From positions 1 to 34,355 of the forward strand of contig DYLQ01000018.1 in assembly GCA_020722015.1 (NCBI GenBank): a DNA stretch of 34,355 nucleotides. Reading direction: 5' to 3'. Below the pieces are notes generated by a model. It did no database searches, was not told where the DNA came from, and saw only the letters and a list, made by a program, of their open reading frames with translations. The stretch comes from Thermotoga sp. (GTDB lineage Bacteria; Thermotogota; Thermotogae; Mesoaciditogales; Mesoaciditogaceae). Positions 12,347 through 31,859 of this stretch are shown here, in pieces. The position numbers were made by a program, and so were the translations under genes. Each line of letters opens with the position of its first letter. Position 1 is the first letter of the stretch.

Positions 12347-13930
12347 TCAATTATCCTTTAAAATAGGTCTTTCGAGTATGTAAAAAATCAAAAATATCGC
12401 GATCGTGAGCATAGAACCAAAAGCTTGTGCCTCTGGAACATGCATCGATGAAAATAATTTGTAAGCACTTGCAGATATCATTGGAAATCGAGGATTGTAA
12501 AGTACAAGCGTTGCTCCCATTTCTCCCATTGAAATTGCAAAAGAAAAGAAAAAAGTTGAAATTATCTGTGGCTTCAAAATCGGAATTCTTATCATGAAAA
12601 TTTTCTGGATCCAATTTGCACCGTCAACCGAAGCTGCCTCATCTATTTCCGATGGAAATCTCTGCCATCCCGCAAGTAGAGTTTGAAATCCTATCGGAAA
12701 TGACAACATGGTGTATATCGGGATTATCTCAAGCGGAAACGTCAAAGGTACGTAATTTTGGATCACAAGATACCCAAAGGCAAGTGTGACAGGTGAAACG
12801 GCAAGAGCAGATGTGAAAAGCGCATCAAAAATTGGAATTTTGATCTTTGTCACAGCATGTGCTGCCGTTATCGAGAGTACAATGGTTAATATGGCACTCA
12901 AAGTTGAAAAGGTAAGTGTCCATATGATAGATGAAAAAACGGAATTGCCTATGTAAGGATCTATTCTACCGGAAAATAATCTTTCAAACCATTCAAGGGT
13001 TAAAGTTGAGTTTTGAAAATTCCAGAATCCCGTGAAGATCTGGGATAAAATTGGTCCGAATACGAATATGAACACACCTAAGATATAAAAGAAGCCCCAT
13101 AAAGGAAATTTTGAATTTGTCCGGGATATTTCCTGTGAAAATGTACCTGAAGATCTTCTCAGGATCGAAAACACAGACGCTATTAAACCTATAAAACATA
13201 TCTGGATCAGCGTAAGTCCTATCGCTCCTTTGAAATCAAGTAATGTCGTGAGATACATGTAAATTTGAACTTCAAGTGTTGAAAATTGAGCTCCGCCTAT
13301 GACGAGCATAACGGTGAAAGAAGTAAAACAATAGATGAAAATAAGCAAGGCTGATGCTATTACAGATGGTAGAAGAATCGGCAATTCCACAGAAATGAAA
13401 CTTCTCAATCTCGAGGCTCCGTCTATTTTTGCCACTTCAGCGTATACCGGATCGAGAATTGAAATTGCACTTCCGACTATTATCATTGTAAGAGGAAAAT
13501 TGTAGAAAGCATTTCCCATAACAACGCCAAGCAGGGTGAAAAGGGGTTCGAATCTAACGTGAAAAATCGGCCATAAAAAATAGGTGTTTAAAATTCCGCT
13601 GTGACCAAAAAAAGATATAAAACCCAACGTCATGGAAATAGACGGCATAACGAATGGAACAGTCGATAGTGCAGCAAAGATACCTTTGAATTTAAATCTT
13701 GTTCTCCCAACAAGGTACGCCCCCGGCAAGCCCATTGCAACTGCGAGAATGGTTGACAAAATGGCCTGGTAAGTTGTGAATTTGAATATCTGAAAGTTAA
13801 GAGCGTTGAAAATCGAAATTTTGCCACCCATCCCATAAGTGTAGATGAAAAGCATCGCTATGGGAAAGATGTAAGCCCCCACCGTGAAAAGGAGGGCAGG
13901 GGCAAGTTCAAAAAAGGATCTTTTGTTCAT
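12347..13930 (-). CDS. ABC transporter permease, fused two-domain (ThiP-like)
   Basis: A 527-residue integral membrane protein with two homologous permease halves of about six segments each. Each half contains an EAA-type loop: VYAEVAKIDGASRLRSFISV in the first and EIDEAASVDGANWIQKIFMI in the second. This fused architecture is that of ThiP and of related iron or spermidine permeases. The start ATG overlaps the stop of the binding-protein gene by 4 bases, and the operon begins with a TPP riboswitch. Together these point to thiamine (or thiamine-precursor) uptake. The ATPase (thiQ) is not present downstream: the next gene, 139 bases away, is a CBS-ACT protein. Confidence 0.88.
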   Translation of the reverse strand: MNKRSFFELAPALLFTVGAYIFPIAMLFIYTYGMGGKISIFNALNFQIFKFTTYQAILSTILAVAMGLPGAYLVGRTRFKFKGIFAALSTVPFVMPSISMTLGFISFFGHSGILNTYFLWPIFHVRFEPLFTLLGVVMGNAFYNFPLTMIIVGSAISILDPVYAEVAKIDGASRLRSFISVELPILLPSVIASALLIFIYCFTSFTVMLVIGGAQFSTLEVQIYMYLTTLLDFKGAIGLTLIQICFIGLIASVFSILRRSSGTFSQEISRTNSKFPLWGFFYILGVFIFVFGPILSQIFTGFWNFQNSTLTLEWFERLFSGRIDPYIGNSVFSSIIWTLTFSTLSAILTIVLSITAAHAVTKIKIPIFDALFTSALAVSPVTLAFGYLVIQNYVPLTFPLEIIPIYTMLSFPIGFQTLLAGWQRFPSEIDEAASVDGANWIQKIFMIRIPILKPQIISTFFFSFAISMGEMGATLVLYNPRFPMISASAYKLFSSMHVPEAQAFGSMLTIAIFLIFYILERPILKDN

Positions 13931-14916
13931 TTAACGATTATTTCTGTCCATTGCGTGATCCAATTCGAGAGATAATTGGAAATTTGATCGAGTGGGATCT
14001 CTACCGTCTTCGTTATCGAAGGGGCATGATCGATAAAAACTTTTGGAAGTGGTACATTCGTGACTGGGTACATCCATTGATTTAGAGGAATCGCCGATTG
14101 AAAATCCTTCGAGAGCATGAAATCGATGAAATCCTTTGCAAGTGCAAGATGTTTTGCTCCTTTGACTATACCTGCGTATTCAACCATGACATATGCCTCA
14201 TCATTTGGAATGACAACACCTATGTTAGAGCCATTGTAATAGTAATAGTTGTAAGCTTCATCTGTGGCAAAACTTACCATCATCTTTGCTTCTCCACTTT
14301 CAAGCATCTGAAAGGCACTATCCCAGCCACTTGTGACAGTTTTTATGGTCGGAACAAGTTTTTGCCAATAATTCTGCCAATTGTTTCCGTAGATTCCAAT
14401 CGTCCACAACAGAAAATCAAGACCCGTCGTCGAAGTTCTTGGATCTTCGATAACCAAACTGTGTGCATATTCAGGATTTAAAAGCGCCTCAAAAGTTTTT
14501 GGAGGATTGAGAACGGTTTTAAGGTTATAATCTATCGCAAGGGCACCGTAATCGAATGGAATAACCCTGTATTCCGGATCAATAAGGAGAGACTTGTTTA
14601 CAACACTTGCGATATCCGTTGGCTCATAAGATATAAGCAGATCGTCTTTCAAAACTTGTGGAATCTGGCTTTGAGCAAGGCCTATTGCAACATCGGCTTT
14701 GGGATTAGACTTTTCAAGTATCAGCCTTGCCACTATATTTCCGCTTCCCATAGATACAAAGTTAACCTTGCAATCGTACATCTTCTCAAAAATCGGTTTG
14801 ATCTCGTTACCAATTCCGGAAATAAAACTGCTGTAAGTGTATACCGTAAGGGTATCGCTAAAGCCGATCAAGGAGAACAGAACAATTGACGCCATCAACA
14901 AAACGATTTTTTTCAA
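13927..14916 (-). CDS. Thiamine-type ABC transporter substrate-binding protein (ThiB-like)
   Basis: A 329-residue secreted binding protein. It opens with a signal peptide (KKIVLLMASIVLFSLIGFS, residues 2-20), then the mature start TLTVYTYSSFISG typical of ThiB/TbpA. The segment DVAIGLAQSQI and the later YEPTDIASV block fit this family of ferric-iron/thiamine binding proteins. I chose TTG 14916, with GGGTGG 5 bases upstream. An apparent extension to 15009 would run through the riboswitch terminator and is not a real N-terminus. It works with the permease downstream. The TPP riboswitch makes thiamine or a precursor the best substrate guess. Confidence 0.87.
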   Translation of the reverse strand: MKKIVLLMASIVLFSLIGFSDTLTVYTYSSFISGIGNEIKPIFEKMYDCKVNFVSMGSGNIVARLILEKSNPKADVAIGLAQSQIPQVLKDDLLISYEPTDIASVVNKSLLIDPEYRVIPFDYGALAIDYNLKTVLNPPKTFEALLNPEYAHSLVIEDPRTSTTGLDFLLWTIGIYGNNWQNYWQKLVPTIKTVTSGWDSAFQMLESGEAKMMVSFATDEAYNYYYYNGSNIGVVIPNDEAYVMVEYAGIVKGAKHLALAKDFIDFMLSKDFQSAIPLNQWMYPVTNVPLPKVFIDHAPSITKTVEIPLDQISNYLSNWITQWTEIIVK

Positions 14917-14930
14917 AGCAACCACCCCCA

Positions 14931-14962
14931 AAAAATTAAGGCCATCTCTCACGGAGATGGCC
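14931..14962 (-). terminator. Riboswitch-controlled intrinsic terminator
   Basis: On the minus strand a perfect 9-bp stem with a 5-base loop (GGCCATCTC / GAGATGGCC) at 14962-14940 is followed by TTAATTTTTT. It lies between the TPP aptamer and the ThiB-like start codon, so transcription would stop here when TPP is bound. Confidence 0.85.
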
Positions 14963-14973
14963 AGTTTATCCTT

Positions 14974-15061
14974 ATTTCCCTTCGCCGGTATTAACCGGAT
15001 CAGGTTCAAAGGGTCGAGGCTTTAAGCCTCCTCTCAGCCAGTTTACTGGCTCCCCGTTACG
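14974..15061 (-). promoter_or_regulatory. TPP (THI-box) riboswitch aptamer
   Basis: On the minus strand the conserved THI elements appear in order: ACGGGGAGCC, the core GGCTGAGAGG, ACCCTTTGAACCTGATCCGG and TACCGGCGAAGGGA. These are the P2-P5 junction parts of the thiamine-pyrophosphate riboswitch. A local stem GCCAG-TAAA-CTGGC and a second stem GAGGCTTAAAGCCTC are also visible. The aptamer begins about 20 bases after the clp stop, so it belongs to the downstream thiamine-transport genes. Confidence 0.96.
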
Positions 15062-15066
15062 ATCGT

Positions 15067-15095
15067 ATTCTACCACATTTTCATGCTTTTGTTTC
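15067..15095 (-). promoter_or_regulatory. Candidate promoter of the TPP-riboswitch transcript
   Basis: On the minus strand an extended -10 (TGG then TAGAAT, -10 at 15072-15067) lies 17 bases from a weak -35 GAAACA. The predicted start would fall almost exactly at the first bases of the TPP aptamer. The -35 lies inside the 3' end of the clp gene. Confidence 0.45.
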
Positions 15096-17507
15096 GACAA
15101 AATTTTGGTCTTTACTTACCGTTATGGTATCATCCACTTCATCTACGATTATTTTATCTCCTTGCGATATCTTGTTCGCTATTATCATGTCCGCTATTTT
15201 ATCTTCAACTTCGAATTCCATCACGCGTCTTAAAGGCCTTGCACCAAAAGCAGGATCATATCCTTTTTGGGCAAGTAACGCCTTTGCCTTTTGCGTTATT
15301 TCAATTTCAATTTTCCTGTCTTCAAGATTTTTTCGAATCTTCGATATGAAATTATCCACTATGAATTCCATATGAGATTTCTCCAATGGTTTGAAAGCCA
15401 CCATTGCATCTATTCTGTTTAAGAACTCAGGTTTGAAGTATTTTCTCAATTCCTGAACCATGGTTTCGTCAAGATACTCTCTTTTCCCGCTTTCGACACT
15501 TTCGAGTATGTAGTCCGAACCTATGTTTGATGTCATTATTATGATCGTATTTCTAAAATCAACGGTATTTCCCTTTCCATCCGTAAGCCTGCCATCGTCA
15601 AGTACCTGTAAGAGCGCGTTGAAAATTTCCGGATGAGCTTTCTCTATTTCATCAAGAAGAATGACGCTGTATGGACGTCTCCTCACCGCTTCGGTCAACT
15701 GACCGCCTTCTTCATAACCAACGTATCCAGGTGGAGCACCTATAAGTCTTGAAACGGTATGTTTTTCCGAGTACTCTGACATGTCTATTCTTATCAAAGC
15801 ATTATCACTGTTGAAAAGTGCCCAAGCCAAAGACTTGGCAGTTTCAGTTTTTCCGACCCCGGTTGGCCCAACAAACAAGAAGGAACCAGTTGGTCTGTTT
15901 GGATCTTTAAGCCCTGCTCTCGCCCTTCTTATGGTCGCAGCCACCACGTTTACGGCTTCTTCCTGATCGACAACCCTTTGATGGATGATCTTTTCAAGGT
16001 TAATGAGTTTATTTCTTTCATCCTCCATGAGTCTGGTGACTGGAATTCCGGTCCATCTTTCTACTATTTTCGCTATGACATCAACATTAACGACTTTTGG
16101 TATGTTTTCTTGGTGCTTTTTCCATTCTTCCTGAACCTTTGAAAATTCGCTTTTTAATTTCTCAAGTTCTGATTTCTTCATGGCTGCTTTTTCATAGTTT
16201 CCGGCAATGGCAGCGTCGTTTATTTCATCTTCCAACTCTGATATCTTTTTTTGACCTTCGATTATCTCTGATGGAACGAAAGAATTCTCGAATTTCACCC
16301 TTGATGCCGCTTCATCTATAAGATCTATGGCTTTATCGGGAAGAAATCTATCCGTTATGTACCTCGATGAGAGTTTAACTGCCATCTCTATTGCATCGTT
16401 TTCTATTTCAACTCCATGGTGTTCCTCATAAGATGCCTTAAGACCCAAAAGGATTTTTATGGCTTCCTGCTCAGTTGGCTCATCGACATTTATCGATTGA
16501 AATCTCCTTGCGAGTGCTTTATCTTTTTCTATGTATTTTCTGTAATCCTCAAGTGTTGTTGCGCCTATGCATCTTAATTCACCACGGGCAAGAGCCGGCT
16601 TGAGCATATTTGAAGCATCCAAACTTCCACCTTCAACGCTGCCTGCTCCGACGACTGTGTGTAGTTCATCTATGAAAAGTATAACCTTCCCACTCGATCC
16701 CTTCACTGCATCGATGAGGCCCTTGAGTCTTTCTTCAAATTCTCCACGGAATTTGGTGCCAGCTACCAATTTGCCCAGATCAAGTGAAAGTATCCGTTTG
16801 TCCATCATGTAATCTGGAATCTTACCGGAAGTGATAAGTTGTGCAAGCCCTTCAACTATCGCCGTTTTCCCGACACCAGGATCGCCTATAAGGACTGGAT
16901 TGTTTTTTCTTTTTCTTCCGAGAATTTCTATCATTCTTTCCATCTCTTCATCGCGTCCTATCACGGGATCAAGCTTTCCATCTTTTGCCATTTGCGTGAG
17001 ATCTACGGTAAATTTTGAGAGCACATCTAAATTCTCAGATTCTTTTGATTTGCCAGCTTTTCTGACGACAAGGATGGCGTTGTAAACTTTTTCATCATTC
17101 ACTCCAAATCTCATTAAAACACGTGCAGCCATAGAATCGGGAGTTTTCACCATTCCAAGTAGAAGATGCTCTGTTCCTATTTTCTCATCTCCCATTCTGT
17201 TGGCTTCATTTTTGGCACTCTCGAGTACATGTCTGGCATCCGGTGTCACGTACATCTGTTTTATACTTCCAGCTGAGGAAGGATTTCCTCCATATTCTTT
17301 AACAAGCTCTTCGGTTTTATCTTTGAGTTTTTTAATGTTGATCTTTAAATTTTTCAAAGCATCTATTGCCGCATTCTCTTCGTCTTCTATGAGGGCAAGG
17401 AGTATATGCTCGGATCTAAGTTGATCTTGACCGTATCTTGAAAGCAGATCCTGCGTTGACATCATTATATTTGCAGCTTTTTCAGTGTAATCTTCAAGAT
17501 TAAACAT
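15081..17507 (-). CDS. clpC: ClpC-architecture AAA+ ATPase (Clp/Hsp100 family)
   Basis: An 808-residue Hsp100 ATPase. It has an N-terminal Clp repeat domain (about 1-150), a first AAA+ module with Walker A GDPGVGKT at 208-215 and Walker B ILFIDELH near 276-283, and a short middle region with a UVR-like segment (about 417-452). A second AAA+ module follows, with Walker A GPTGVGKT at 547-554. Length and middle-domain size match ClpC, and are too short for the coiled-coil M domain of ClpB. However, the loop after MTSNIGSDY, where ClpC carries a [IV]GF tripeptide for docking on ClpP, is short and has no such tripeptide. It may act without ClpP as an unfoldase or disaggregase. It follows dnaK and hsp20 on the same strand. 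Confidence 0.9.
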   Translation of the reverse strand: MFNLEDYTEKAANIMMSTQDLLSRYGQDQLRSEHILLALIEDEENAAIDALKNLKINIKKLKDKTEELVKEYGGNPSSAGSIKQMYVTPDARHVLESAKNEANRMGDEKIGTEHLLLGMVKTPDSMAARVLMRFGVNDEKVYNAILVVRKAGKSKESENLDVLSKFTVDLTQMAKDGKLDPVIGRDEEMERMIEILGRKRKNNPVLIGDPGVGKTAIVEGLAQLITSGKIPDYMMDKRILSLDLGKLVAGTKFRGEFEERLKGLIDAVKGSSGKVILFIDELHTVVGAGSVEGGSLDASNMLKPALARGELRCIGATTLEDYRKYIEKDKALARRFQSINVDEPTEQEAIKILLGLKASYEEHHGVEIENDAIEMAVKLSSRYITDRFLPDKAIDLIDEAASRVKFENSFVPSEIIEGQKKISELEDEINDAAIAGNYEKAAMKKSELEKLKSEFSKVQEEWKKHQENIPKVVNVDVIAKIVERWTGIPVTRLMEDERNKLINLEKIIHQRVVDQEEAVNVVAATIRRARAGLKDPNRPTGSFLFVGPTGVGKTETAKSLAWALFNSDNALIRIDMSEYSEKHTVSRLIGAPPGYVGYEEGGQLTEAVRRRPYSVILLDEIEKAHPEIFNALLQVLDDGRLTDGKGNTVDFRNTIIIMTSNIGSDYILESVESGKREYLDETMVQELRKYFKPEFLNRIDAMVAFKPLEKSHMEFIVDNFISKIRKNLEDRKIEIEITQKAKALLAQKGYDPAFGARPLRRVMEFEVEDKIADMIIANKISQGDKIIVDEVDDTITVSKDQNFVETKA

Positions 17508-17524
17508 CTAAACACCTCCAAAAG

Positions 17525-17548
17525 AAAAAGGGGCCGAAGCCCCTTTTT
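17525..17548 (-). terminator. Intrinsic terminator between hsp20 and clpC
   Basis: A GC-rich 5-bp stem (GGGGC-CGAA-GCCCC, 17530-17543 as read on the plus strand) is extended by A and T runs on both sides. It directly follows the hsp20 stop and precedes the clpC ribosome site, so it would attenuate transcription from hsp20 into clpC. Confidence 0.8.
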
Positions 17549-18004
17549 TTACTTTATCTCAATCTTTCTGCTTGAAGTCTTCGCTTCTGGGCTCTTTGGA
17601 ATTGATACATTCAAAAGTCCGTTTTCAAATTTAGCACTTATGTTTTTTTCGTCGATGTATTGTGGAAGAGAGAAAGATCTTTCAAATTTGCCGTAACTTC
17701 TTTCGATCTTTTTGTATCCTTTTTTCTCTTCTTTCTTCTCTTCTCGCTTTTCACCTTTTACAGTCAATATTCCGTCATTAACTTCGATCTCGATATCTTC
17801 TCGTTTCATGCCCGGCAATTCGACTTCAAATTCGTAACTTTTATCAGTTTCAGAGATGTCGACCGCTGGCACGAAAGTTTCAGTAGAAAGGGTAGGCAAT
17901 ATCCTTGGAAACTCCTCGAAAAACTTGTCTATCATCTTTTGCATTTCTTCGAAAGGCCTATAAACATCAAGCCATTCAGTCTCTTTTCTCTTTTCAATGG
18001 CCAT
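17549..18004 (-). CDS. hsp20: Small heat-shock protein, Hsp20/alpha-crystallin family
   Basis: A 151-residue ATP-independent holdase. The alpha-crystallin domain covers about residues 38-140 (VPAVDISETDKSYEFEVELPG, then DGILTVKGEKR and the ENGLLNVSIPK strand). The C-terminus has the IxI tail motif (RKIEIK) used for oligomer assembly. I chose ATG 18004: AAGGAG lies 9 bases upstream, while the ATG at 18013 overlaps that ribosome site. The gene starts 33 bases after dnaK and precedes clpC, which suggests a chaperone module in which Hsp20-bound clients are handed to DnaK and the Clp ATPase. Confidence 0.93.
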   Translation of the reverse strand: MAIEKRKETEWLDVYRPFEEMQKMIDKFFEEFPRILPTLSTETFVPAVDISETDKSYEFEVELPGMKREDIEIEVNDGILTVKGEKREEKKEEKKGYKKIERSYGKFERSFSLPQYIDEKNISAKFENGLLNVSIPKSPEAKTSSRKIEIK

Positions 18005-18037: not shown

Positions 18038-19879
18038 TTATTTTCCTTGATATTCTGCATTTACCGTATCGTCTTTCGACGGTTCATTCGAATTACCACT
18101 ACCTGTACCATTATTTCCATTTCCGGGTTGCGATGCTGTCTGTTGATACAATTTTTGGCCAATCTCTTGGGTTTTTTTCTGTAGATCATCTGTTAAAACT
18201 TTTATCCTTGCATAATCATTCTTTTCAAGTGCATCTTTGAGATCTTTGGTGATATTTTCCGTTTCAGCACGAATCGCAGGATCTATTTTCGAACCTTGTT
18301 CGTTAAGAAGTTTTTCCGTCTGATAGACAAGGGAATCGGCTTGATTTTTCATCTCAACTTGCTGCTTTCGTTTTGCGTCTTCTTCTTGGAATTTTTTTGC
18401 ATCTTCAACCATTTTCTTTATGTCCTCTTCGGAAAGGTTTGAACTTCCACTTATAACTATCGATTGCTCTTTGCCCGTTGCTTTGTCTTTTGCTGAAACG
18501 TGAACTATACCTTCAGAATCTATATCAAAGGTAACCTCTATTTGAGGAATACCTCTTGGGGCCGGAGGAATACCGGTGAGATTGAACCTTCCAAGTGATT
18601 TGTTATCTCCGGCTAGTTCTCTTTCACCTTGAAGTACATTTATCTCAACCTCTGTTTGGCCATCCTCAGCCGTCGTAAAGACCTCCGATTTCTTTGTTGG
18701 CACAGTGGTATTTCTCGGAATTATACGATGCATGATTCCACCCTTAACCTCAACGCCAAGAGACAACGGCGTAACATCTACAAGTACGACCTCTCTTTTT
18801 GTCTCTCCGGAAAGTATCGATGCTTCAACGGCTGCACCTATCGCAACGGCTTCATCTGGATTAACTGCTTTTGACGGTTCTTTGTGAAATATATTCTTGA
18901 GAAAATCTTGGACAATTGGCATTCTCGTTGGGCCACCAACGAGCAAGATCTCACCTATATCTTCTACGGCTATTTTTGAATCGTTAAGTACTGTCTCTAT
19001 GGGATCTCTCATTTTTTCGACTATATCACGAATCAAACTTTCCAACTTTGCCCTTGTGAGAGACACCTGAAGATGTTTTGGACCGTTCGCATCTGCCGTT
19101 ATGTATGGAAGATTTATTTCCGTTTCCATCTTCGTTGTGAGTTCTATCTTTGCGCGTTCTGATGCGTCTTTTAATCTTTGCAGTGCTTGCTTATCGTTAC
19201 TGAGATCCACTCCTGTTTCCTTTTTAAAGTTGTCGATGAGCCAGTCCATTATTCTCTGATCAAAATCGTCCCCTCCGAGGTGATTGTTTCCACTTGTTGC
19301 CTTAACCTCAATAACGCCGCCACCTATTTCAAGTAAAGAAACATCAAAAGTACCTCCGCCAAGATCACAGACGATTATCATTTCATCTTTGCTCTTATCT
19401 ATGCCATAACCCAAGGCTGCAGCGGTAGGCTCATTTATGATTCTCAAAACATCAAGTCCCGCTATTCTGCCGGCATCTTTCGTTGCCTGGCGCTGCGCAT
19501 CTTCAAAATAAGCAGGCACGGTTATGACGGCCTTTGTTATCTTTCCTCCAAGTACGGCTTCAGCATCGTTTTTCATCTTTCTAAGTATAAATGCGCTTAT
19601 CTCTTGCGGGGTATATTCTTTATTGTCGATCTTGATTCTATTATTTGTGCCCATCTGACGTTTTATGGATCTGATGGTTCTTTCAGCATTCAAAATGGCC
19701 TGTCTTTTTGCCGGTTCCCCCACAAGCACTTCACCTGTTTTGGTGAAAGCCACAACTGAAGGAGTAAGCCTTGAACCTTCGGCATTTGCTATAACTTCTG
19801 ATTTTCCATCTCTTACAATCGCTATTTCAGAATTCGTTGTTCCAAGGTCTATTCCAACAACATATTCTCTTTCGGACAT
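18038..19879 (-). CDS. dnaK: Molecular chaperone DnaK (Hsp70)
   Basis: A 613-residue Hsp70. The nucleotide-binding domain shows GIDLGTTNS (from residue 9), [15 protein letters not shown] and LVGGPTRMP. The substrate-binding domain begins after [15 protein letters not shown], and the lid ends in a glycine/asparagine-rich tail with terminus EYQGK. The start ATG 19879 has GGAGGTG 6 bases upstream. No grpE, dnaJ or hrcA is adjacent; they must lie elsewhere. The gene is first in an operon with hsp20 and clpC and is read from a near-consensus promoter just upstream, with a CIRCE-like dyad covering the -35 box. Confidence 0.97.
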
Positions 19880-19907: not shown

Positions 19908-19936
19908 ATTATAATCAACTCTTAGCCTCATGTCAA
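19908..19936 (-). promoter_or_regulatory. Sigma-70 type promoter of dnaK
   Basis: On the minus strand a perfect -35 TTGACA (19936-19931) and a perfect -10 TATAAT (19913-19908) are separated by exactly 17 bases, 29 bases upstream of the dnaK start codon. This is the best promoter in the window. Confidence 0.88.
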
Positions 19937-25497: not shown

Positions 25498-26271
25498 ATG
25501 AATTTTGGCATAAAAGACAAAAAGGTGCTTGTTTGTGGTGGAACAAAGGGAATTGGTCGTGCCGTGGCGAATGAATTTGCGAAAGAAGGTGCTCTGGTTC
25601 ATATCGTTGCCAGGAATGATTCAAACAAAGTGGCAAAAGAAATATCAGAAAAATATGGTACAAAAGTTTTTGGCCATAACGGAGATCTCTCAAAAGCCGA
25701 TGACATAAAACGTATTTTGGGAGAGATCGAGAACGTAGATGTACTTTTCATAAATGCAGGAGGCCCGAAACCCGGGAACTTGGAAGATCTCACAGACGAA
25801 GATTGGCATACGGCATATGATCTGACCATGATGAGTGCCGTCAGGCTCATAAACGCATTTTTACCCGGCATGTTATCAAAGAAATGGGGCCGTATAATAG
25901 CATCGACATCTGTATCCGTTTATGAACCGATCCCAAGGCTTTTGTTGTCTAACGCTGTAAGAATGGCGGTGATAGGATTGATGAGAAGCCTTTCCGCGGA
26001 GTACGCAAAAGATGGCATAACTTTCAATTGTATTGCCCCAGGTTATACACTTACAGAAAGGATCAAGGCACTATTCGAAGATACGGCAAAAAAGTCCGGA
26101 ATTACAGTTGAAGATGCCAGCAAAAAAATCGTGGAAAAAACAGACATAAAAAGACTTGGTAAGCCTGAAGAAATCGCAGCTACCGTTGCTTTTCTTGCTT
26201 CTGAACGTGCATCATACATAACTGGAACGGTAATAAGAGTTGATGGGGGCTATGTGGCATCAACCTTATGA
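25498..26271 (+). CDS. SDR-family protein with altered catalytic residues
   Basis: A 257-residue short-chain dehydrogenase/reductase fold, similar in length to FabG. The cofactor loop is GGTKGIG (14-20) and NAG lies at 86-88. The catalytic tetrad is changed: Ser138 is present, but the expected Tyr at 151 is serine and the expected Lys at 155 is arginine (S151-N-A-V-R155). The numbering matches E. coli FabG exactly. The C-terminal ITGTVIRVDGG is normal. Loss of the tyrosine predicts either no ordinary carbonyl reduction or a different chemistry; SDR subfamilies with an SNxxR signature exist. It should therefore not be taken as the missing FabG of the nearby fatty-acid operon. Strong GGAGG precedes ATG 25498. 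Confidence 0.85.
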   Translation: MNFGIKDKKVLVCGGTKGIGRAVANEFAKEGALVHIVARNDSNKVAKEISEKYGTKVFGHNGDLSKADDIKRILGEIENVDVLFINAGGPKPGNLEDLTDEDWHTAYDLTMMSAVRLINAFLPGMLSKKWGRIIASTSVSVYEPIPRLLLSNAVRMAVIGLMRSLSAEYAKDGITFNCIAPGYTLTERIKALFEDTAKKSGITVEDASKKIVEKTDIKRLGKPEEIAATVAFLASERASYITGTVIRVDGGYVASTL

Positions 26272-26580
26272 CACCAGCATTTCGAAAATTTTGATTTCAT
26301 ATGTTTAAAAAAGCAATCTCTTTTGCTTATACTAAATCTTTTTCAAAGCCAACATATAAATTCAAGTTCGGCAGGTTGCAAGTGGCGAGTGGCTTGTGGT
26401 CTTTCATTCTTGACCTGATCGGGAATTCCATACGATAAAGTCAAATGACTTCGTTTTTTAAAGTTGGTTCTATCTTTGCGATTACATTTCCAAAGGTTGA
26501 TTTTACTCCTCTTGGAATGTTTTACCACATTTCCATATCCAGAAATTGAATACCATAGACCATGTACAGTTCAAAAAATA
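26272..26580. other. Intergenic region with repeat relic upstream of fab operon
   Basis: No credible gene is seen. The stretch 26370-26405 is made of near-repeats of GGTTGCAAGTGGCGAGTGGC type. Next comes CCTGATCGGGAATTCC, which resembles dispersed intergenic repeats in many genomes. At 26438-26459 a short stem AAGTCA-AA-TGACTT is followed by CG and six T, a weak plus-strand terminator that could serve the SDR gene. Confidence 0.4.
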
Positions 26581-26602
26581 GATGATTTGAATTCAAATCA
26601 TC
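26581..26602. promoter_or_regulatory. Perfect 22-bp palindrome, candidate operator of the fab operon
   Basis: A perfectly symmetrical sequence with half-site GATGATTTGAA followed by its complement, about 90 bases upstream of fabF. The core TTTGAATTCAAA resembles the TTTGA-N-TCAAA form of MarR-family (FabT-like) operators, with a spacer of 2 not 3. It is not followed by a T-run, so a terminator is unlikely. Confidence 0.5.
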
Positions 26603-26626
26603 CCTTAAAACGCCTATTTTAAAGGG
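26602..26626. repeat. Imperfect inverted repeat next to the palindrome
   Basis: CCCTTAAAA (26602-26610) and TTTTAAAGGG (26617-26626) form an inverted repeat with one bulged base. It abuts the 22-bp palindrome. Its role is unknown; it may be a second regulator half-site or an RNA hairpin. Confidence 0.4.
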
Positions 26627-26634
26627 AAAAGGTT

Positions 26635-26665
26635 TTGGCATGAATTTTGCTAATAAATTTATAGC
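26635..26665 (+). promoter_or_regulatory. Weak candidate promoter of the fab operon
   Basis: TTGGCA (26635-26640) is followed by AT-rich sequence with TATAGC (26660-26665), 19 bases apart. Neither the spacing nor the -10 is good. It is the best candidate between the palindrome and fabF. Confidence 0.25.
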
Positions 26666-26692
26666 TTTCATAAAGAAAGGAGAATTTTTTTG

Positions 26693-27922
26693 ATGAAAAG
26701 AGTTGTCGTTACAGGCATAGGAATAATAGCAGCTTCTGGAACTGGCAAAGAGGCATTTTTCAGAGGAATGCTTTCAGGTGAGAGTTTTGCAAATAAAATA
26801 AGCACATTTGATCCGACGGATTTCAAATGCCAAGTTGCGTTTGAAATAAAAGACTTCGATCCGAATAAATATATGGATCCAAAAGATGTGAGGCATTATG
26901 ATAGATATACTCAATTAGGAATTGCGGCAGCAAAAGAAGCCATCGAAGATGCAAATCTTTCAAAAGAAAGTCTTGAAAATGCCGGTGTTATAGTATCATC
27001 GGGCATAGGTGGAATAAAATCTCTTGAATCTGAAATGGAAACCATGATCTCAAAGGGGCCTTCCAGGGTTAGCCCTTTTCTTGTTCCAATGATGATTTCA
27101 GATACGCTGGCTGGTACCATAGCAACAAAATATGGTGCGAAGGGGCCGAACTTTGGTACCGTCAGTGCATGCGCTTCAAGTGCACATGCCATTGCCATTT
27201 CTTATGACATGATAAGACACGGAATTGTTGATACCGTTATAGCAGGTGGTTCAGAGGCAGCTATATGCAAAATATCCATAGCGGGTTTTGGAAACATGAA
27301 AGCTTTATCGACGAGAAATGATGACCCAAAGCATGCATCAAGACCATTTGATAAGGATAGAGATGGATTTGTCATGGGAGAGGGAGCCGGCATAGTTGTT
27401 CTTGAATCTTTGGAATCGGCAAAAAATCGCAATGCAAAAATTTACGCCGAAATTAAAGGATACGGAATGAGCGATGATGCATATCATATGGTTCAGCCGG
27501 ATCCGAACGGCTTGGGAGCTTATGCTGCGATGGAAATGGCCATAAAAAGTTCCGGCCTTTCGGTAGAAGACATTGATTATGTAAACGCCCATGCAACATC
27601 CACGCCTGTGGGAGATATGGCAGAAGCCAATGCTATAAAGAAAATATTTAAGGAAAGAACAAAGTACGTCTTTGTGAGTTCAAACAAAGGCGCCATCGGT
27701 CATACACTTGGCGCTGCCGGTGCAATAGAATTCATATCATCAATCCTTGGAATGGAAAGATCTGTTATATTTCCAACTGTCAATCTTGAAAATTTAGATC
27801 CTCAGATCGATTTTAACTGTGTACCTCAAAGGCCACAAAATATGAAAATAAGAAACTTTATTTCCAATTCTTTTGGATTTGGAGGGCATAATGTATCTTT
27901 ACTCGCGGGAGAAATTGAATGA
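26693..27922 (+). CDS. fabF: 3-oxoacyl-ACP synthase II (FabF)
   Basis: A 409-residue KAS II condensing enzyme that extends acyl-ACP by two carbons from malonyl-ACP. The Cys-His-His triad is visible: C160 (VSACASSAH), H300 (VNAHATSTPVGD) and H337 (NKGAIGHTLGAAG), with K332. Length is normal. It begins MKRVVVTGIG. An in-frame TTG 3 bases upstream at 26690 has slightly better spacing to AAGGAG (7 versus 10 bases), so the start is ambiguous by one codon. It is the first gene of the fatty-acid operon and its stop overlaps the next start by 4 bases. Confidence 0.96.
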   Translation: MKRVVVTGIGIIAASGTGKEAFFRGMLSGESFANKISTFDPTDFKCQVAFEIKDFDPNKYMDPKDVRHYDRYTQLGIAAAKEAIEDANLSKESLENAGVIVSSGIGGIKSLESEMETMISKGPSRVSPFLVPMMISDTLAGTIATKYGAKGPNFGTVSACASSAHAIAISYDMIRHGIVDTVIAGGSEAAICKISIAGFGNMKALSTRNDDPKHASRPFDKDRDGFVMGEGAGIVVLESLESAKNRNAKIYAEIKGYGMSDDAYHMVQPDPNGLGAYAAMEMAIKSSGLSVEDIDYVNAHATSTPVGDMAEANAIKKIFKERTKYVFVSSNKGAIGHTLGAAGAIEFISSILGMERSVIFPTVNLENLDPQIDFNCVPQRPQNMKIRNFISNSFGFGGHNVSLLAGEIE

Positions 27923-28653
27923 AGATACTTTTCGATGATTCCGTTGATGTCAAAGGCATTGAAAAGATACCACTTTACATCGAATGGAAGAACAGAAAAT
28001 TAAGAGTCTCCGAAATAGATCGAAGATCTTATTTTTCTTTGAACAAAAAAAGTACCATAGTACTTCCCACTTTCGATGAACTCAATGACTTTATTTCTAA
28101 ACTCGTACCGGTTAAGATATTTTTACCAACAAGACCTTTCGGCTTTTTAAAGGATGAACTCATATTTCTTTCTTCTCTTGTTTACGGAATCAGTGTTGTG
28201 GAAGAAAAGATGGATGCCGTGGCACTTTCTTTGTTCCTAAATAGTGGTATGCCATTGGACAAGGATATTTCTTTTGCAAAATCAGCCACAACATATCTGC
28301 TATTTTCGGATCTTTCTTTCTTGAGAAAAAACGATGTTATCTCTGAGAGAAAAGCATCTATGATCGTCACAAAGATGATCAACATAGTCAAATTCAGTTT
28401 TGGCCGAACAGCGGTCAAAAGCATGTGGAGTTTAAAGAACGCAATTTCATCCGTAATCGATGATATAGATAATCCATCTACGATAGCCTTAAGGTACAGT
28501 GGACGAGAAAAAACAGTTGAATCGATAACAAAAGAATTCTCTGAAAAATTTGGTTCAAAGGTATCATCTGATTTCATGAACCCTGCTTTGGCTTCAATCT
28601 ATGGTCATGATACTTTAACAATAACGGTAATATCGGAGGGAAATAATGGATAA
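27919..28653 (+). CDS. Unrecognised protein within the fatty-acid synthesis operon
   Basis: I do not recognise this 244-residue protein. It is soluble-looking, rich in serine, lysine and isoleucine, and has no signal peptide, membrane segment, cysteine motif, P-loop, HTH or obvious catalytic triad. It has a basic middle part with a conserved-looking [17 protein letters not shown] segment (about 155-171). The C-terminus ([20 protein letters not shown] then LTITVISEG) looks like a small alpha/beta domain of ACT or FtsZ-C-terminal type; that is impression only. GGGAG lies just before ATG 27919. It overlaps fabF by 4 bases and fabZ by 8 bases, so it is translationally coupled to both. This points to a role in, or control of, fatty-acid synthesis. 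Confidence 0.85.
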
Positions 28654-29047
28654 GATAACAGACATACTTCCTCATCGTTATCCTTTTTTAATGGTCGATG
28701 GTGTGATATCTAAAGATGAAAAAGCAGTTGTGGCTTTTAAAAACGTTACTTACAACGAACCACAATTTCAGGGTCATTTTCCAGATAACCCCATTATGCC
28801 CGGCGTACTTATACTCGAAGGTATGGCTCAAGCGGCCGGTCTTATAACTTTGGTTCCGGGCAAAACACCGCTTTTCATCGGAGCAGATAAAGTTAGATTT
28901 AGAAAACCCGTAAGGCCTGGAGATAAAATAGTTTATGAGATAAAGGTAATTGGAGAACATTTAGGCATGATAAACGTAGACGCTGTGGCAAAAGTTGATG
29001 GCAACGTGTGTGCAACGGCAACGCTGCTTTTAGGAATGCAAAAATGA
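28646..29047 (+). CDS. fabZ: 3-hydroxyacyl-ACP dehydratase FabZ
   Basis: A 133-residue hot-dog fold dehydratase that removes water from beta-hydroxyacyl-ACP. The catalytic pair is visible as H44 in [13 protein letters not shown] and E58 in [11 protein letters not shown]. The opening [11 protein letters not shown] is diagnostic of FabZ. GGAGG lies before ATG 28646. It overlaps the unknown upstream gene by 8 bases and its stop overlaps the fabH start. Confidence 0.96.
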
Positions 29048-29958
29048 TTTTCTCCAAGATCGTTGGCGTTGGAGGATATCTTCCTCCAAAGGTTATCGAA
29101 AACTCCCAGATTGAAAGCATGCTTGGTGTGGGAGATTGGATCTTTGAAAGAACGGGCATAAAAAGGCGTCACATAGCGGAAGAGAATGTCGTCGATATGG
29201 GTGTTAAAGCTTTAAAGGATGCCATGAAAAATGGCGGAATTGAAACTTTCGATTATCTTATAGTCGCTTCAAACACTCCAGATACGCTTATTCCCGGAAT
29301 CTCCGGAAGGATTCAACAAGCTTTCGGAGAGAAGATTGGAGGTATAGATATTCAAGCAGGATGTTCAGGGTTCATTCAGGCAATGGAAGTAGCAGATTCC
29401 ATGATAAGATCTGGAAGTTTTTCAAGGATAGGCATCGTTGGAACTGAAAAATTATCGGGAATAATAGATTTCAAAGATAAATCAGTAGGACCACTTTTCG
29501 GAGACGGTGCAGGGGCTATTTTAATGGAAAGATCGGATAAACCCGGAATAATCGCAAATTATTCCAGAATTCAGGGAGATGGTTATGAATCTATAATTCA
29601 AAGATCGGGACAGACTCTTCAAATGGACGGCAAAGCCGTATTCAGATTTGCAGTGGAAGCAATCGCTGAAGCCATAGAAGAAGTGCTCAAAAAGGCTAAG
29701 TTGGATACAAAAGATATAGACCTTTTTGTACCACACCAATCCAATTACAGGATAATAGCAAAGGTAGCTGAAAAATTAAATCTTTCCATCGATAAATTTC
29801 AAATTTCCATAGGGGAACACGCAAATACGGCAGCGGCATCTGTTCCGTTGGCAATAAAAGATGCTTTAGATTCAGGTAAAATAAGAAATTCAAGTATCGT
29901 GCTGACGGTTGGGTACGGTGCAGGTCTTGGAATAGCGGCAAGCATTTTTAAATTCTAA
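29044..29958 (+). CDS. fabH: 3-oxoacyl-ACP synthase III (FabH)
   Basis: A 304-residue KAS III that starts fatty-acid synthesis by condensing acyl-CoA with malonyl-ACP. The Cys-His-Asn triad is C107 (IQAGCSGF), H231 (VPHQSNYRI) and N261 (EHANTAAAS). [10 protein letters not shown] is also typical. I chose ATG 29044, which overlaps the fabZ stop (ATGA) and has AGGA 8 bases upstream. A longer frame from 29008 lies inside fabZ. It is slightly shorter than E. coli FabH, with trimmed loops. Confidence 0.95.
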
Positions 29959-29970
29959 GGAGGTTGTTAG

Positions 29971-30924
29971 ATGTTTTCGAGAGTTTGTGAGATTTTAAAA
30001 ATAGAATATCCTATAATTCAGGGAGGAATGGCTCAAGTTTCAACGGCAAAACTCGCTGCGGCCGTTTCAGAAGCAGGAGGCTTTGGAATAGTCGCCTCCG
30101 GAGGGCGCGATCCGGAATGGGTAAGATCTGAGATAAGGAAAACAAAAGAAATGACTGACAAGCCATTCGGCGTTAACGTCATAGTTTACGAGAAATGGGC
30201 AGATGATATAGTCAAAGTCATAATTGAAGAAGGTGCAACAGCCGTTACATTTGGAGCCGGTAATCCTTCTAAATACGTAGAGTCCCTTAAAGAAAAAGGT
30301 ATAAAAGTTATTCCAGTCGTTGCTTCCGAAGCATTTGCAAAAAGGCTTGAATCTTACGGCGTTGATATGGTAATAGCCGAGGGAATGGAATCAGGGGGAC
30401 ATATCGGCGAGGTAACGACGATGGTACTTGTACCTGCCGTCGTTGAGACTGTCGAAATACCAGTCATAGCAGCGGGAGGAATAGCAAACGGAAATCAAAT
30501 AGCGGCATCATTTGCCCTGGGTGCTGAAGGTGTTCAAATAGGAACAAGGTTTGTGGCAACTCAAGAATGCGAAGTGCATCCAAATTACAAAGAGAAAATT
30601 CTTAAAGCCTCAACCCGCGATACGCTTGTAACGGGAAGAGTTACAGGTCACCCTGTGAGGGCTTTGAGAAATCCTTTGACCAATGAGCTTCTTAAAATAG
30701 ACGAAAGAGGCGGAAAGTCAGAAGAAGTTGAAAAACTTGGGAAAGGTGCTCTCAGAGCGGCAGTTGTCAATGGAGATGTTGATCATGGTTCCTTTATGTC
30801 AGGACAGTCTGCAGGACTTATCGACGATATTCCATCGGTAAGAGAACTCATATCTAAACTTTGGAACGAGACGCTTGAAACGATAGATTCATTTAAAACA
30901 ATAGATGTGGAGGTAAAAGCATGA
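29971..30924 (+). CDS. fabK: Enoyl-ACP reductase II (FabK), FMN-dependent
   Basis: A 317-residue flavoprotein with a TIM barrel of the nitronate monooxygenase/FabK family; it performs the last reduction of each elongation cycle. The N-terminal IIQGGMAQVSTAKLAAAVSE and the phosphate loops IPVIAAGGIANG and GVQIGTRFVA are visible. GMESGGHIG, with the catalytic-site histidine, is the FabK signature. It has a very strong ribosome site (AAGGAGG). FabK replaces FabI in many Firmicutes and in Thermotoga. Its stop overlaps fabD by 4 bases. Confidence 0.94.
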   Translation: MFSRVCEILKIEYPIIQGGMAQVSTAKLAAAVSEAGGFGIVASGGRDPEWVRSEIRKTKEMTDKPFGVNVIVYEKWADDIVKVIIEEGATAVTFGAGNPSKYVESLKEKGIKVIPVVASEAFAKRLESYGVDMVIAEGMESGGHIGEVTTMVLVPAVVETVEIPVIAAGGIANGNQIAASFALGAEGVQIGTRFVATQECEVHPNYKEKILKASTRDTLVTGRVTGHPVRALRNPLTNELLKIDERGGKSEEVEKLGKGALRAAVVNGDVDHGSFMSGQSAGLIDDIPSVRELISKLWNETLETIDSFKTIDVEVKA

Positions 30925-31859
30925 ATGCTTTGATGTTTCCGGGACAAGGATCACAAAAATTGAATATGATGAAAGATTTTTACGATGAATACCCAGAATC
31001 AAGGAATGTCATGGACAGTGCTTGTGAGATTCTCGGTTTTGATTTGAAAAAAATAGTCTTTGGAAATGACGAACATGAACTTACCAAAACCTACAACGCA
31101 CAACCAGCCTTGCTTACAACGTCCATGATGGCTTTTGAAGCTCTGAAATCAAAAAACATCATCGATTTCGAAGTCGTTGCGGGCCACAGTCTTGGAGAAT
31201 ATTCAGCTCTTGTCGCATCAGGGGTAATTTCATTTGAAGATGCACTTAAAGCCGTAAGACTTCGCGGAGAACTTATGGAAAATGCCATTCCAAGTGGGGC
31301 AGGTTCGATGCTCGCAATTCTTGGGCTATCTCCTGAAAAAGTCGAGGAAATTGTGGAAAAATTAGATGGAGTTTACGTTGCAAATTACAATTCCCCACTT
31401 CAGATCGTTGTAAGTGGTGAGATAACGGCACTTTTAGGCTCTGTTGAGATGTTTAAATCAGCGGGAGCAAAACGAGTAGTTCAACTCAATGTCTCCGGTC
31501 CATTTCATTCACCTCTCATGATGCCTGCCAAAGAAAAGCTTTCCGAATTTTTGAACAAGATAGAGTTTAATAAGCCAAATGTACCTGTGATACTAAACGT
31601 TACCGGTAAAGTGGCCGGAACGATAGACGAAATAAAATCTAAATTGATAGAGCAACTTACATCTCCTGTCAGATGGATCGAAACGATCCAAACGATGAAT
31701 GAAATGTGTGTAACGAGGTACGTGGAAGTCGGATCTGGTAACGTGCTTTGCGGCCTTGCAAAGAAGATCACGAATGTCGAGGTTTACTCAACTGACACAA
31801 TAGATGAAATGGATAAATTGGAAGGAGTGGTGAAAAATGCCGAAATTGCAGAATTCTGA
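30921..31859 (+). CDS. fabD: Malonyl-CoA:ACP transacylase (FabD)
   Basis: A 312-residue acyltransferase that moves malonyl from CoA to ACP. The opening FPGQGSQ, the nucleophile S90 in AGHSLGEYSAL and the catalytic histidine in SGPFHSPLM (about 195) are visible. The arginine that holds the malonyl carboxylate lies in VRLRGELME. The start overlaps fabK by 4 bases and the end overlaps acpP by 23 bases. Confidence 0.96.
   Translation: MNALMFPGQGSQKLNMMKDFYDEYPESRNVMDSACEILGFDLKKIVFGNDEHELTKTYNAQPALLTTSMMAFEALKSKNIIDFEVVAGHSLGEYSALVASGVISFEDALKAVRLRGELMENAIPSGAGSMLAILGLSPEKVEEIVEKLDGVYVANYNSPLQIVVSGEITALLGSVEMFKSAGAKRVVQLNVSGPFHSPLMMPAKEKLSEFLNKIEFNKPNVPVILNVTGKVAGTIDEIKSKLIEQLTSPVRWIETIQTMNEMCVTRYVEVGSGNVLCGLAKKITNVEVYSTDTIDEMDKLEGVVKNAEIAEF

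Follow-up and report, generated by a model that had tools for sequence, protein, structure and literature searches.

Why would a Clp ATPase of ClpC-like build be encoded behind dnaK and hsp20, the partners of the disaggregase ClpB, and does it work with the peptidase ClpP at all? The question is raised by a gene in the window, by which we mean the whole stretch of 34,355 nucleotides of Thermotoga sp. analysed here (contig DYLQ01000018.1, assembly GCA_020722015.1). The 808-aa open reading frame is genuine and encodes a double-ring Clp ATPase, with the following parts:

15081..17507, minus strand: clp, loopless Hsp100/Clp ATPase, 808 aa (Clp_N repeats, D1, short M-domain, D2)
17058..17507, minus strand: N-terminal domain, two Clp_N repeats, residues ~1-150
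16095..16304, minus strand: M-domain region, residues 402-471, two-helix coiled coil of ClpC length
15438..15524, minus strand: site of the ClpP-docking [LIV]GF loop of canonical ClpC, here shortened and without the tripeptide, residues 662-690

Domains and motor of the window protein

Pfam assigns two Clp_N repeats, AAA, AAA_lid_9, AAA_2 and ClpB_D2-small to the protein, which begins at its Clp_N domain with no N1; a ClpG-type additional aggregate-binding domain was not found at the N-terminus. Invariant or near-invariant alignment columns hold the Walker A and B motifs of both modules, the KFRG pore loop of D1 and its D2 counterpart GYVG, and the arginines of RRF and NRID, so the motor looks functional. 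Among solved structures the best sequence matches are ClpC of B. subtilis (826 bits) and of S. aureus (822 bits), followed by ClpB of T. thermophilus (790 bits), and the best fold match of the AlphaFold model (mean pLDDT 81, pTM 0.48) is again ClpC. None of the curated NCBIfam families claims the protein: it scores 1029.5 bits against the ClpB model TIGR03346, below the cut-off of 1232.1, 756-760 bits against the ClpG/ClpK models, whose cut-offs are 1900, and below the cut-off of each of the ClpA, ClpK, ClpG and TssH models. The initial annotation had given the middle domain a ClpC-type length, and this is borne out by a sequence measure and by the AlphaFold model, which places two helices at residues 413-434 and 438-468.

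The ClpP-docking loop is absent

It had also been claimed that the second AAA+ module carries no [ILV]GF tripeptide, and the comparison with other Clp proteins upholds this. In the window protein MTSN and FKPEFLNRID are separated by 29 residues (IGSDYILESVESGKREYLDETMVQELRKY). An identical count yields 37 for B. subtilis ClpC (VGASELKRNKYVGFNVQ...), 38 for the canonical ClpC that this genome also encodes, which has GLGF, and 37-41 for the sampled canonical ClpC proteins of Thermotogota, firmicutes and others, all with a GF tripeptide. Pairwise alignment shows that the YVGF segment of B. subtilis ClpC is missing from the window protein, and in the AlphaFold model a short turn (674-678), flanked by the helices 664-673 and 679-690, takes up the loop site.

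The full-length protein was also searched for [ILVMFTA]G[FLIY], and no docking loop turned up at another place. The search returned only LGL354, TGI486, AGL531 and VGY596; LGL354 sits in D1 and the rest fall on motifs conserved among Clp proteins (WTGIPV, RAGLKDP and the pore loop GYVG), so none is a docking loop, and D2 holds no docking-like tripeptide. Moreover, the loop is absent in all ten genomes of f1, the window's own family (f1 to f11 are labels of this analysis, not taxon names), which together with its absence in 41 of 51 members of the wider clade described below means that its absence here is not due to chance.

A conserved dnaK-hsp20-clp operon

The genes dnaK, hsp20 and clp follow one another in that order on the minus strand, 24 and 41 nt apart, and the operon comprises these further features:

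18038..19879, minus strand: dnaK, operon partner, over the cut-offs of TIGR02350 and NF001413
17549..18013, minus strand: hsp20, small heat-shock protein, operon partner
19908..19936, minus strand: perfect sigma-70 consensus TTGACA-17-TATAAT upstream of dnaK, the sole 12/12 match in the region
17523..17550, minus strand: GC-rich hairpin and T-run between hsp20 and clp (GGGGC-TTCG-GCCCC-TTTTT)
14940..14962, minus strand: terminator-like hairpin after clp, the likely end of the transcription unit

The three genes are consecutive and co-directional in five families (f1, f3, f6, f8 and f11); in f4 an hsp20 and in f5 a dnaK lies near clp, and the sampled orthologs of f9 and f10 do not adjoin dnaK. 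No dnaK or hsp20 was found in the flanks read beside loci of canonical ClpC or of the second subclade, and the operon contains no peptidase gene. A thiB-like binding-protein gene follows clp in the window (13927-15009) and also in two f9 genomes whose clp is M-less (loci L183 and L184), and this shared neighbour supports the orthology of the clp genes.

Every one of the 21 operons examined (the window and 20 relatives) carries a stable hairpin downstream of the hsp20 stop codon and ahead of the ribosome-binding site of clp; its position is constant and its sequence varies. Each is more stable than nearly all of its mononucleotide shuffles (p of 0.03 or less), and T-runs often come after it. 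This suggests partial termination, a possible attenuator that would set clp lower than dnaK and hsp20. The promoter is an ordinary sigma-70 box, and a search for CIRCE with up to 3 mismatches allowed found none in the window, so the case for heat induction of the operon is weak. Elsewhere in the window, on the plus strand at 25498-31859, lies a fatty-acid synthesis cluster with a short-chain reductase, a ketoacyl synthase, ACP synthase III, a member of the nitronate monooxygenase family (FabK-like) and an acyl transferase.

A phylum with ClpP and without a recognised ClpB

The genome encodes exactly two double-AAA+ Clp proteins, the window protein and a canonical ClpC (GLGFVEES, contig C140), neither of which qualifies as ClpB, so that ClpB was not found there. 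ClpX and ClpP are adjacent on contig C122, where a further AAA_2 protein is taken to be HslU, and GrpE is also encoded. The genome search for ClpB and ClpP that the initial annotation had proposed thus returned the peptidase and no ClpB, and the pattern extends to the phylum: with the curated TIGR03346 cut-off of 1232.1 bits as the threshold, ClpB was called in 0 of 103 Thermotogota genomes and in 8 of 14 control genomes, and no other recognised disaggregase was found in Thermotogota. ClpP was detected in 100 of the 103 genomes, including all 82 of good quality (the three without a match are 60-80% complete); since the peptidase is nearly universal, the loss of the loop is not due to its absence.

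A Thermotogota-specific clade with and without the loop

Orthologs and paralogs were gathered across the phylum and a tree was built with the M-domain and loop columns removed. Fifty-one sequences, drawn from each of the eleven families except f2, form one Thermotogota-specific clade of two subclades, separate from 15 canonical ClpC sequences (SH-aLRT 100). All 15 of these canonical paralogs keep the loop. The ten clade members that bear a loop are nine of the ten sampled f7 sequences (we infer f7 to be Petrotogaceae) and one f5 sequence, and at least four changes of loop state are needed on the clade tree. On this evidence ClpP independence is not a universal property of the clade. Some less complete genomes (e.g. 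G001, G004 and G005) showed canonical ClpC only.

Five f7 loci (L140, L138, L142, L198 and L199) have an LGF, VGF or MGF loop inside an otherwise loopless clade. The loop segment of L140 is 54% like the canonical ClpC of its own genome, versus 17-28% for clade relatives, which suggests gene conversion or retention. In the second loopless subclade, the clp of L186 (G090:C1) is apparently split into ORFs at 895097-896014 and 895999-897414. Outside Thermotogota, the WOR-3 locus L017 encodes a loopless Clp with a short M-domain (83 residues) and a 25-residue loop site; DnaK or Hsp20 was not seen in the 10 kb read around it.

The M-domain is short, and lost in two families

From IDLIDEA at the end of D1 to WTxIPV the window protein has 84 residues, and the f8 orthologs have 23-24; in f9 the span is equally short by inspection, D1 passing straight into the D2 linker. 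The remaining Pfam domains of these M-less orthologs are complete, and in f8 the gene still stands behind dnaK and hsp20. The M-domain of ClpB is two-winged and is the part that binds Hsp70 (PMC8129007); the window protein possesses a single wing, and the f8 proteins lack both. If these proteins disaggregate, this excludes the ClpB handshake with DnaK in its known form, and it favours recruitment by the N-domain, as in ClpL and ClpG, followed by a downstream role of DnaK. Of the proposal that the operon unites clp with the partners of ClpB, the arrangement itself thus stands, its order being kept in five families, and a ClpB-like action of DnaK is weakened, the M-domain being too short for the second wing of ClpB and gone in f8.

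Comparison with known Hsp100 systems

The nearest precedents are ClpIb, ClpG/ClpK and ClpL, and the nearest described idea is ClpI. According to Jiang and Schmitz (2023, PMC10149685), ClpIb of Actinomycetota resembles the window protein in its ClpC-length M-domain, a Tyr near the tip (Y438 here) and the missing LGF, and ClpI, like our clade, has members with and without the loop; its authors believe it to be the sole Clp group of that kind, and they leave an LGF-independent contact of ClpIb with ClpP possible. ClpI is described only from Actinomycetota and together with ClpB and ClpC, unlike the Thermotogota clade, and no M-less form of it was found in the sections consulted, whereas one is known in this clade; its N-terminal domains lack both phosphoarginine sites, whereas the window protein keeps the aligned glutamates E33 and E113 in an alignment of these positions only. 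The ClpI-like sequences from our protein search (L306-L317), some bearing the loop and some lacking it, cluster with ClpK in the core tree and apart from this clade, though a union of the two fits almost equally well in the AU test. A DNA pattern for the Tyr M-tip in Actinomycetota was discarded, the inspected matches looking mostly like UvrB/UvrC-type UVR motifs and none being a Clp.

ClpG/ClpK shares the reduced M-domain and the missing ClpP loop, and the Klebsiella clpK adjoins an hsp20, as in the window; ClpG differs in its additional aggregate-binding N1 domain and C-terminal extension (PMC8129007), both lacking here. ClpL likewise has two AAA+ modules, a short M-domain and no ClpP motif (PMC11006417), but its N-terminal region is different from the Clp_N domain found here and it forms a long separate branch. 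For both ClpL and ClpG, neither of which has the ClpP motif, stand-alone disaggregation has been proven (PMC11006417, PMC8129007). ClpB shares the lack of the loop (the E. coli loop site has 29 residues, as here) and the partner genes dnaK and hsp20, but its M region has 145-154 residues against 84 by the same kind of measure. ClpC shares the M-domain length, the Clp_N repeats and the best sequence and fold matches, but has the docking loop, and in the trees the canonical ClpC of the same genomes lies outside this clade.

Two further sequences deserve mention. A ClpB-like protein of Candidatus Firestonebacteria (L238, G115:C115:8480-11089) has an M region of 149 residues and a GF tripeptide in its D2 loop (KTKKEIGFGTGD); it groups with ClpB in the core tree and may be a naturally occurring ClpB that has a loop for docking ClpP. 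L039 (WNZI01000005.1), titled Vibrio cholerae, is an Arthrobacter-type ClpC, probably from a mislabelled or contaminated assembly.

No published description of a loopless Thermotogota Clp was found in a literature search that left out most subscription journals, and the search for ClpB or ClpC of Thermotoga or Thermotogae gave nothing relevant. ClpP-motif-free stand-alone disaggregases (ClpG/ClpK, ClpL) and the loopless ClpIb are already known; what sets the present case apart is that no ClpB is recognised in an entire phylum, that the dnaK-hsp20 operon is conserved and that some members are M-less.

Origin of the clade

The window protein had been proposed to be ClpC-derived, and this was not confirmed. 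A quick AAA+ core tree, from which N-domain, M-domain and loop columns were removed, placed the loopless clade on the ClpB side (SH-aLRT 97). When the clade was instead constrained to join the ClpC of its own phylum, the likelihood rose slightly above that of the core tree (AU p 0.51), and a union with ClpI came out almost level (AU p 0.50; 0.495). In a larger sequence set the union with the ClpC of the phylum had p 0.086. We have therefore withdrawn the placement of the clade as sister of ClpB, since the AU test fits other placements equally well, and a duplication within the phylum and other origins would fit the data equally well.

A candidate disaggregase in place of ClpB

The window protein is, in our estimate, probably a ClpP-independent threading chaperone or disaggregase that fills the niche of ClpB. 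The missing docking loop, the M-domain of ClpC-type length, the conserved operon and the lack of ClpB make this the most economical reading; its support from sequence is that the ATPase modules and pore loops are intact, the loop is absent, a canonical ClpC and ClpP are present, ClpB is not, and the operon is conserved. We hypothesise that Hsp20- and DnaK-coated aggregates would be its targets, and that substrates would be threaded through the two-ring pore at the expense of ATP and released for refolding instead of being passed to ClpP, with which no stable complex would form. Since the protein lacks the second M-domain wing of ClpB, and the f8 and f9 orthologs lack the M-domain altogether, recruitment would most likely occur through the N-terminal domain; as in ClpL and ClpG, this domain may directly bind the aggregate or a substrate coated with Hsp20. 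DnaK would then refold the released chains and not dock at the M-domain.

Against this reading stand the GF loops of the ten f7 and f5 members, the weak case for heat induction and the f9 and f10 orthologs that do not adjoin dnaK; even a loopless protein may also touch ClpP with another surface. We nevertheless regard it as improbable that the protein is an unfoldase still partnering ClpP, or another peptidase, through a docking site other than the [LIV]GF loop. Such a partnership would suit the near-universal ClpP, the loop of some clade members and the LGF-independent contact considered for ClpIb in PMC10149685, but D2 offers no alternative tripeptide, a loop-bearing canonical ClpC is already at hand in the genome and no peptidase gene accompanies the operon. 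A ClpB-like bi-chaperone, offering DnaK a docking site on the short M-domain or elsewhere on its surface and disaggregating only with DnaK, agrees with the dnaK operon conserved across five families, with the lack of ClpB in the phylum and with the presence of GrpE; we consider it unlikely, albeit less so, since Hsp70 binding in ClpB belongs to a two-winged M-domain (PMC8129007), while the M-domain here has two helices only, of ClpC length, and the f8 orthologs have none in the same operon. There is also little to recommend a regulatory unfoldase that remodels a few specific clients and shares with dnaK and hsp20 only their stress control: ClpX does have ClpP-independent roles (PMC8129007) and the f9 and f10 orthologs lie outside the dnaK locus, but the operon partners hsp20 and dnaK speak for a role in bulk protein quality control, and the phylum has no other recognised disaggregase that we could find.

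How bacteria without ClpB or ClpG recover aggregates is an open question according to a 2021 review (PMC8129007). For Thermotogota, which are mostly heat-loving and have no recognisable ClpB, the ClpP-independent disaggregase proposed here supplies a specific, conserved and testable candidate beside dnaK and hsp20. The clade is also the second Clp group, after ClpI, with and without an LGF-type loop, its thermophilic proteins should suit structure work, and the naturally M-less f8 orthologs offer a direct test of an Hsp100 protein in a DnaK/Hsp20 pathway without the M-domain. It is possible, at somewhat less than even chances in our view, that Thermotogota swapped ClpB for an Hsp100 class of their own that is free of the ClpP loop, M-less in f8 and f9, and in f8 co-encoded with DnaK and Hsp20. 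If so, this phylum would possess a heat-shock disaggregase that is independent of the M-domain, which the handover between ClpB and DnaK needs.
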